Part shown: positions 39,855 through 45,306 of the stretch, piece by piece
Numbering within the stretch: position 1 is the first letter of the stretch
Layout of the letters: every line of letters begins with the position of its first letter
Source of the DNA: Raoultibacter phocaeensis
GTDB taxonomy: Bacteria; Actinomycetota; Coriobacteriia; Coriobacteriales; Eggerthellaceae
Direction of reading: 5' to 3'
Length of the DNA stretch: 64,000 nucleotides
Assembly (NCBI RefSeq): GCF_901411515.1
Contig: NZ_CABDUX010000002.1
Location: forward strand, 744,001 to 808,000
Translations under genes and position numbers: made by a program
Notes under the pieces: model-generated
The model's input: only the letters and a program-made list of their open reading frames with translations
What the model was told of the DNA's origin: nothing
The model's database searches: none

Positions 39855-39882
39855 TTGCGCGATGGGGAATCGCGAGTATACT
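39855..39882 (+). promoter_or_regulatory. Promoter of the ilv operon
   Basis: TTGCGC (39855-39860), 16-base spacer, TATACT (39877-39882). The predicted start near 39889 precedes the T-box-like leader. Confidence 0.6.
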
Positions 39883-39888
39883 TCGTAC

Positions 39889-40178
39889 CCAACAAATCTA
39901 TAGCTTCAAATGCGTTGACGAGGAAAGTACGGACGAATCCATCTTCAGAGAGCCGGCGGGTGCTGCGAGCCGGTGGTGGACGGCCCGAAAGCCACCTTTG
40001 AGCAGTCGAGTTCGAACGAAGCGGACGCAGCCGGGCAACTCACGGTGTGCACCGCGGCAAGTAGGCTTGAACCGGTGACAACCGTTATCAGTCCGAATGT
40101 TGAGCGCATCGCCCAAAGCGTGCGCGTCTTCCTTTACCTGATGGTCCTGGTGCAAGCTTCTTGCGGCAGGATTTTTTT
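39889..40178 (+). promoter_or_regulatory. T-box-like leader of ilvD with attenuator
   Basis: The leader reads like a T-box riboswitch: GAGGAAAGTA (K-turn and AGTA loop-E side of stem I, about 39919-39928), AGAGAGCCGG and later GAGCCGG (distal stem), then GAAA-GCC-A and TTTGAGC. The last part aligns with the B. subtilis glyQS specifier region (GAAA-GGC-A...TTGAGC), so the specifier would be GCC, an alanine codon. The T-box motif appears as GGTGTGCACCGCGG (about 40044-40057), with TGC where the consensus has the two bases GN. A transcription terminator follows at 40145-40178. Such leaders bind uncharged tRNA and let transcription proceed. Confidence 0.6.
40145..40178 (+). terminator. Leader terminator (attenuator) of the ilv operon
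   Basis: TCCTG-GCAAG arms pair with CTTGC-CAGGA across a CTT loop, with a small internal loop, and are followed by T7 (40172-40178). It lies 94 bases before the ilvD start. Confidence 0.8.
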
Positions 40179-40272
40179 GTTGTAGCGCATGCAATGCGCA
40201 CGCTGATCGCCGAAGCGGCATTGCGTGCGGTTGGGTGCAACGGGCATACGTCAGACGGAAGGAAGGCACATC

Positions 40273-41951
40273 ATGCACTACCGCAGCGATGCTGTGAAAA
40301 AGGGGGTTGCGCGCGCACCGCACCGCAGCCTGCTTAAGGCAGACGGAATGACCGACGAGGAGCTTGCGCGACCGCTTGTCGCCGTCGTCAACTCCCGAAA
40401 CGACATCATTCCCGGGCACAACAACCTCGATAAGATCGCCGATGCCGTGAAGGCGGGCATCTACATGGCGGGCGGCGTTCCTTTCGAAATCTCCACCATC
40501 GGCGTGTGCGACGGCATCGCGATGAACCACGAGGGCATGCACTACTCGCTCGTTTCGCGCGAGGTTATCGCCGATTCGGTCGAATGTGCGGTGCAGGGCC
40601 ATCAGTTCGATGCTATGGTATGCATTCCCAATTGCGACAAGATCGTGCCCGGCATGCTCATGGGCGCTTTGCGCGTAAACATCCCCACCGTGTTCGTGTC
40701 GGGTGGTCCTATGCTCGCGGGCAAGCAGCCGGGCGGGTGCGGGCCGACGACCGACCTCAACACGCTTTTCGACGGGGCGGCTGCCGTGCAAAACGGCACG
40801 ATGACCGAAGAGGAGCTCGCATACTACGAAGATACAGCGTGTCCGACCTGCGGCAGTTGCTCGGGCATGTTCACGGCGAACTCCATGAATTGCCTGTGCG
40901 AGGCGCTCGGCATCGCGCTTCCCGGCAACGGCACGATACCTGCCGTCTACTCCGAGCGCATCAGGCTTGCAAAGCATGCGGGCATGAAGGCGATGGAGCT
41001 TTTGGAACGGGGTGTCACCGCCCGCGATATCGTGAACAAAGCTGCTATCCATAACGCGATGGAGTGCGATATGGCGTTCGGCGGCTCGACGAATACGGTG
41101 CTCCATCTTACGGCCATCGCGGCCGAGGCGGGCCACCCCATCTCGATGGACGATTGGGATGACGCAAGCGCGCGCACCCCGCATCTCGTGAAGCTCCAGC
41201 CCTCGGGTCCCAGGCCGCTTTCCGATCTCTACGAAGTCGGCGGAGTACCGGTGGTCATCGCCGAGCTCGACAAACTCGGCCTCATCGACCGCAGTGCCGT
41301 TACGTGCATGGGTTCGATGGGCGAGTACCTCGACTATATGGGCGAGCACTGCCAAGGCGCCGACGGCGAAGTGTGCCGCAGCTTCGACAACCCGTTTTCG
41401 GAAGCGGGGGCGCTCAAAGTGCTGCACGGCAACATCGCTCCCGATGGGGCCATCGTCAAGAAGGCGGCGGTCGATCCGGCTATGATGAAGCACACTGGTC
41501 TCGCCCGCGTGTTCGAAAGCGAGGAAGAAGCGTGCGCCGCCATCAACGCCGGCAAAATCGTCCCAGGCGATGTGGTTGTCATCCGCTACGAAGGCCCGAA
41601 AGGCGGCCCCGGCATGCGCGAGATGCTCACACCCACCTCGTCGATCGTCGGCATGGGGCTTTCCACGTCGGTCGCGCTCATCACCGACGGGCGTTTTTCG
41701 GGGGCAACCAAGGGCCCTGCCGTGGGGCACGTCAGTCCCGAGGCGGCGGCGGGAGGTCCGATCGCGCTTATCGAAGAGGGCGATTCGATCACCGTCGACA
41801 TCGGGAGGGGAGCGCTTACGCTCAATGTCGACGAGGCGGAACTCGAGCGAAGGCGCACGGCATGGCAGCCGCCCGCGCAGAAACACAACCACGGGGTGCT
41901 CTCCCGTTACGCGAAACTGGTGACTTCGGCAGACAAGGGGGCGATTCTCTC

Positions 41952-41955
<4 letters not shown>
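40273..41955 (+). CDS. ilvD: Dihydroxy-acid dehydratase
   Basis: 560 residues from ATG 40273, after GGAAGG. It converts dihydroxy-isovalerate/methylvalerate to the keto acids in valine and isoleucine synthesis. The Fe-S ligands are visible in IPNCDKIVPGM and PTCGSCSGMFTANSMNC, with a further cysteine in the N-terminal VCDGIAM. The C-terminal barrel has ITDGRFSGATKGPAVGHVSPEA with the catalytic serine. The stop overlaps ilvB (ATGA). Confidence 0.96.

Positions 41956-45306
<3,351 letters not shown>

Follow-up and report, generated by a model that had tools for sequence, protein, structure and literature searches.

A T-box relative upstream of ilvD in Eggerthellaceae that keeps the decoding half and appears to lack the discriminator half

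The ilvD locus and its leader

The DNA considered here, which we call the window, is a 64,000-nucleotide stretch from Raoultibacter phocaeensis (Eggerthellaceae), and all features described for it lie on the forward (+) strand. Open reading frames and Pfam matches identify a branched-chain amino acid operon consisting of ilvD, which codes for dihydroxy-acid dehydratase (40273-41955), an ilvB-like gene (about 41990-43751), ilvH (43748-44230) and ilvC (about 44330-45306). The IlvD protein is 94% identical to that of Raoultibacter timonensis, the nearest named relative. As read from the sequence, TATACT at 39877-39882 is likely the −10 box of the ilv promoter; it lies about seven bases before the leader, and the same letters occur at the equivalent place in several relatives. 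The leader ends with an intrinsic terminator (40145-40178), wherein a hairpin at 40145-40171 with a predicted energy of −15.3 kcal/mol is followed by seven T residues. Further downstream, GGAAGGAAGG is located at 40257-40266, upstream of ilvD.

An earlier note on this DNA had placed a T-box-like leader with a seven-T terminator before ilvD, and both its position in the ilvD 5′ leader and the terminator were confirmed. Its T-box assignment also gained a covariance match: when the 801 bases around the leader were searched with E-values, positions 39906-40135 matched the T-box model RF00230 end to end (65.7 bits, E 6.5e-14), and this was the sole strong Rfam match in the region. Given that this score is below the curated gathering cut-off of 93 bits, a default-threshold Rfam scan of the window reported nothing. 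However, two canonical T-boxes of the same genome, found upstream of trpP and pheS and carrying the ordinary T-box sequences UGGCACCGCA and UGGUACCGCG, likewise score below 93 bits (73.8 and 68.6), and therefore the missed cut-off is weak evidence against membership of the canonical class. Since low scores are usual in this genome, it is the lack of a T-box sequence that sets the ilvD leader apart.

The window leader shares with canonical class I T-boxes a stem I with K-turn, S-turn, specifier and apical double T-loop elements, a stem II S-turn, a IIA/B pseudoknot, a terminator and an amino acid biosynthesis operon downstream. Unlike known T-boxes, it has no UGGN bulge and no antiterminator after IIA/B, it falls below the gathering score, and it pairs an alanine specifier with a branched-chain operon. 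As judged by alignment, the leader (39906-40178) is a genuine T-box relative, which we keep out of the canonical class because a defining feature, the UGGN antiterminator, was looked for and is absent. When the window leader was folded by itself, its energy was no better than that of shuffled sequences (z 0.20), which is uninformative, and a search of a plasmid collection gave no match.

Stem I and the specifier

Regions upstream of ilvD were taken from 79 other Eggerthellaceae genomes; of the 138 genomes of this family in the collection, nearly all entered the comparison, and about 70 Eggerthellaceae genomes carry this type of leader. The RF00230 alignment places stem I, including the K-turn region, at 39906-40003, with its specifier loop and distal loop, an AGTA S-turn (39926-39929), an AG bulge reading AGAGAG (39947-39952) and the apical helix CCGGC/GCCGG (39953-39957 with 39969-39973). 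The stem I landmarks that had been picked out from the sequence alone (39920-39929, 39947-39957 and 39987-40003) are all upheld. In relatives, the apical helix takes compensated forms, such that CCGGC/GCCGG is found alongside CCUGC/GCAGG, UUGGC/GCCAA, CAGGC/GCCUG and others.

In the same alignment, A-GCC-A-CC comes directly after the GAA of the specifier loop. The specifier codon is GCC (Ala) at 39991-39993, with GAAA before it and A after it, and counting in the B. subtilis glyQS register yields this codon as well. This alanine reading, already proposed in the earlier note, survives both the covariance alignment and a comparison of the 75 leaders with a placeable specifier loop, 52 of which have GCC in register. 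The neighbouring bases vary more than the codon itself: A, C or U precedes it, and in these 52 leaders it is followed by A (31), C (18) or G (three). The remaining leaders (about 30%) carry GGC (three), GUC (two), other codons, or loops of different length, and in some of these loops GCC persists but is shifted by one base.

The genome encodes a tRNA-Ala(GGC) ending in ACCA that matches the specifier. GCC is not a branched-chain codon, and control of the ilv operon by alanine is possible. The roughly 30% of leaders that lack an in-register GCC, together with the C that replaces the usual 3′ purine of the specifier in 18 of the 52, weigh against such control. An early survey names GCU as the alanine specifier (PMC2494555).

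One leader of the family (L109, from genome G106) has a strongly shortened stem I devoid of AG bulge, distal loop and specifier. It keeps stem II, IIA/B and the terminator, and represents a natural test of the need for stem I.

The IIA/B pseudoknot and selection on the fold

The IIA/B pseudoknot occupies 40071-40093, wherein CGG pairs with CCG (40073-40075 with 40082-40084) and GAC with GTC (40077-40079 with 40091-40093). It covaries across the Eggerthellaceae, with compensatory changes in many relatives: the compensated pairs include CGACA/UGUCG, UGACA/UGUCA, GACU/AGUC, GACC/GGUC, GACG/CGUC, GACAA/UUGUC and GCCUU/AAGGC. T-boxes require IIA/B for tRNA binding, although this element does not itself touch the tRNA (PMC7583486). 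Compensation in both IIA/B and the stem I apex therefore speaks for preservation of a tRNA-binding fold, as opposed to a fossil.

Stem II and the missing antiterminator

Stem II (40004-40070) was delimited by the RF00230 alignment and by comparison with relatives, as were its apical hairpin (40031-40045) and the AAGTA strand of its S-turn (40059-40063). Both the stem II S-turn and the IIA/B pseudoknot are present in the window leader. In a true T-box, the UGGN bulge lies 3′ of IIA/B. The earlier note had taken ACCGCGG (40051-40057), within the segment GGTGTGCACCGCGG (40044-40057), for the T-box core and had described the adjoining acceptor-binding motif as deviant. The same alignment and comparison put this segment in stem II, because it is located upstream of AAGTA and of IIA/B, and ACCGCGG sits between the apical hairpin and the S-turn strand. 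Nor is it conserved: its counterpart in R. timonensis is GGTGTGCACCATGG, with ACCATGG in place of ACCGCGG, and it is absent from other relatives.

The suspected loss of the acceptor-binding element nevertheless stands, for reasons unconnected with the stem II segment cited for it. No UGGN was found at the 5′ edge of an antiterminator bulge downstream of IIA/B in the window leader, and no canonical UGGN-ACCGC occurs downstream of IIA/B in the window or in any Eggerthellaceae ilvD leader examined; the lone pattern match, in L123, falls outside the leader. What is gone is the whole antiterminator throughout the family, rather than one deviant copy of it. UGGN-ACCGC is present in Eggerthellaceae T-boxes of other genes, including those of trpP and pheS in the same genome.

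In the window's own genome, a T-box with UGGCACCGC (L001, 1501-1749, minus strand) precedes a trpP-type tryptophan transporter gene, after which comes an ABC ATPase gene. Elsewhere, 48 TBDB entries resemble the window leader in having a predicted specifier and no UGGN found; the publication gives their number only (PMC7778990). Among the outgroups within the class, a T-box with a CUG specifier before ilvD (L184) has a bulge that reads GGUGGUGCUGAGAGG in place of GGUGGUACCGCG, and L182 and L183 are likewise without the T-box motif. The T-box sequence may have been lost more than once, as these three leaders suggest.

A candidate switch

A terminator is found in the leaders of 68 relatives. Every 12-base segment of each leader was scanned against the terminator 5′ arm. 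When averaged over genera, the strongest pairing was with the 5′ strand of IIA/B, at a mean of −10.4 kcal/mol; the profile as a whole has a mean of −6.9 (sd 1.45). In the window, this candidate antiterminator would join ACCGG-T-GAC (40071-40079, the 5′ strands of IIA and IIB) with GTC-CTGGT (40144-40151), which overlaps the terminator 5′ arm; the resulting eight base pairs are predicted at −10.6 kcal/mol, weaker than the terminator at −15.3. A single register accommodates the pairing ACCGG-n-GACN / N′GUC-CYGGN in 44 leaders from 22 genera, and 92% of the pairs form there. Pairs swapped between genera are worse than native ones (p 0.011 in the register test, p 0.017 by duplex energy), where the permutations control for kinship at the genus level only. 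Several changes preserve the pairing: GACA/UGUC (L066, L095, L107), AUCGG/CUGAU (L131, L133) and GGCUA/UAGUC (L126).

However, the pairing fails in genera g2, g5, g6, g17, g18, g27 and g36, and, owing to the high G and C content of both strands, the median z against shuffled terminator arms reaches no more than −0.9. The earlier note had raised the option of a new pairing; 40071-40079 with 40144-40151 offers one candidate for it, and the evidence for the IIA/B 5′ strand as the new antiterminator partner is suggestive only.

Two further proposals were rejected. Pairing of the stem II apical loop and 3′ arm with the terminator gave a null result in the energy-based swap test; a version with a contiguous helix gave p 0.0012, from regions picked after inspection and mostly from g5 and g6. 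The stem II apical loop is conserved in canonical outgroup T-boxes as well, and therefore its conservation has another cause. The descent of GUCCUGG from the CUCGUCCCUGG of the outgroups is not provable, because the outgroup terminators seem to use ACCGCG/CGCGGU.

The preferred explanation

The explanation that we favour, tentatively and at a little short of an even chance, is that the leader descends from a T-box, has kept the decoding half and the terminator, has lost the discriminator half, and attenuates the ilv operon through a switch that involves the IIA/B 5′ strand. The half retained would consist of stem I with its alanine specifier, stem II and IIA/B, and the half lost would be the UGGN bulge and the antiterminator. 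With the terminator kept, attenuation of the ilv operon most likely continues. The alignments bear out the ancestry, the selection on the decoding fold, the absence of UGGN-ACCGC and the near-universal terminator among relatives, and the mechanism is a proposal.

We infer that the leader still binds tRNA-Ala(GGC), and that two states compete for the IIA/B 5′ strand (ACCGG-n-GAC). In one state, this strand would close the pseudoknot and leave the terminator free; in the other, it would pair with the pre-terminator bases and the terminator 5′ arm (GUC-CUGGU) and thereby prevent termination. The candidate pairing, if right, competes with both IIA/B and the terminator; since tRNA binding to the decoding half needs IIA/B, it would push the leader towards termination, opposite to the behaviour of a T-box. 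Points against include the leaders without a GCC specifier, the frequent loss of the 3′ purine, and L109, which lacks the stem I apex and specifier.

A more specific form of this reversal, which we regard as doubtful, is that binding of tRNA-Ala stabilizes IIA/B, removes the antiterminator partner strand and terminates the ilv operon. Free, mostly uncharged tRNA-Ala would then shut off ilv transcription and spare pyruvate for alanine, and the leader could sense the tRNA without touching its 3′ end.

Alternative explanations

A somewhat unlikely alternative is that the fold has been taken over, such that stem II and IIA/B, or the whole leader, sense a small molecule or protein and tRNA decoding is gone. 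This would fit the Coriobacteriaceae and Atopobiaceae, where the specifier loop has become shorter and varies between leaders (CAUU, CACU, GACU, AAGA) while stem II and IIA/B persist, as well as the one Eggerthellaceae leader that has lost the stem I apex. It sits poorly with the retention of GCC and of the AG bulge and distal loop in most Eggerthellaceae genera, and with the known roles of IIA/B, which concern tRNA binding (PMC7583486).

The acceptor-binding sequence could instead have moved into the terminator, where UGGU at 40148-40151 would pair with the ACCA of uncharged tRNA-Ala; the tRNA would then block the terminator and preserve normal T-box logic without a separate antiterminator. 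In the window's ilvD leader, UGGU occurs downstream of IIA/B only within 40144-40151 and, overlapping this, at 40142-40145. The constancy of UCCUGGUGC in about 30 leaders while the hairpin 3′ arm varies, the match of its U to A73 of tRNA-Ala, and a duplex of −10.4 kcal/mol predicted for the window's arm with the 3′ end of tRNA-Ala all speak for this arrangement. We nevertheless judge it fairly unlikely: in relatives of the same architecture, CGGU, UGGG, UGAU or an unrelated sequence takes its place, although UGG does not vary among T-boxes (PMC7583486), and the element has no 7-base bulge and lies inside a strong hairpin.

Decay, the other option offered in the earlier note, would make stem I a fossil and the terminator constitutive or inactive. 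The missing antiterminator, the scattered specifier changes and the truncated L109 are what decay might leave behind, but compensatory changes in IIA/B and stem I over some 30 genera, a specifier constant in most genera and the retention of terminators oppose it, and we consider it unlikely on these comparative grounds. Finally, a leader-peptide attenuator, in which a short reading frame with many Val and Leu codons would enter the terminator, is highly improbable: the window does have a 70-codon GTG frame ending in VRVFLYLMVLVQASCGRIFLL, but a one-base difference shifts the VLVQ codons of the sister species to another frame, none of the three frames stands out in relatives, being open in 49, 45 and 41 of 68, no conserved short frame before the terminator was found among the frames of 68 relatives, and the Val and Leu codons lie inside the terminator rather than upstream of it.

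Distribution, ancestry and implications

In 20 ilvD-upstream regions from other orders of Coriobacteriia, 16 T-box matches of 47 to 100 bits were obtained. These deeper-branching ilvD T-boxes resemble the window leader in their gene, in the type of stem II apical hairpin and in the order of elements up to IIA/B, and differ from it in having GGGUGGUACCGCG antiterminators, with the core UGGNACCGC in 13 of them, and mostly Leu specifiers (CUG, CUC or UUG, with one GUG).

Within the same order, the ilvD leaders of the sister families Coriobacteriaceae and Atopobiaceae keep stem I, stem II and IIA/B, and UGGN is absent from those examined. At their 3′ end, CCUCGCAUUUCUC...GAGAAAGCGAGG lies immediately upstream of the start codon and is predicted to form a hairpin that would cover the ribosome site. 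On the Collinsella and Olsenella side, a Shine-Dalgarno hairpin replaces the terminator. Slackia equolifaciens and its kin share this form, which is limited to the sister families and some Slackia. The conserved hairpin was observed in L160, L167 and L236-L277, and because it would cover the Shine-Dalgarno sequence, control in these leaders may act on translation. No Shine-Dalgarno sequestration was found for the window's ilvD leader, where the ribosome site is about 80 bases past the terminator. Such hairpins recall class II (translational) T-boxes of the ileS type in Actinobacteria; however, class II T-boxes keep UGGN in the antisequestrator, the sister-family leaders are without it, and the window leader has a terminator.

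From these distributions, we infer that the discriminator domain of a T-box, most likely one of the leucine type, disappeared in the ancestor of the order, and that the descendants of this T-box now use differing output devices. On sequence evidence, the window leader is a T-box variant with the decoding half present and the discriminator half lost, and with an alanine specifier in the Eggerthellaceae. T-boxes are defined by two tRNA contacts, one with the anticodon and one with the 3′ end. This lineage of gut Actinobacteria would have kept the first and dropped the second, with the fold still under selection and with two differing output devices, a terminator and a Shine-Dalgarno hairpin. It thus makes testable both regulation by the decoding half alone and a route from a T-box to something else, and cautions that such leaders are not assignable from the specifier alone. 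A literature search that covered few of the subscription journals gave no account of ilvD leaders from Eggerthellaceae or Coriobacteriaceae, and an earlier description may exist.

Upstream of one Coriobacteriaceae ilvD leader (L172, 176-247) lies a near-perfect inverted repeat of about 72 bases, which gives spurious microRNA matches in Rfam.
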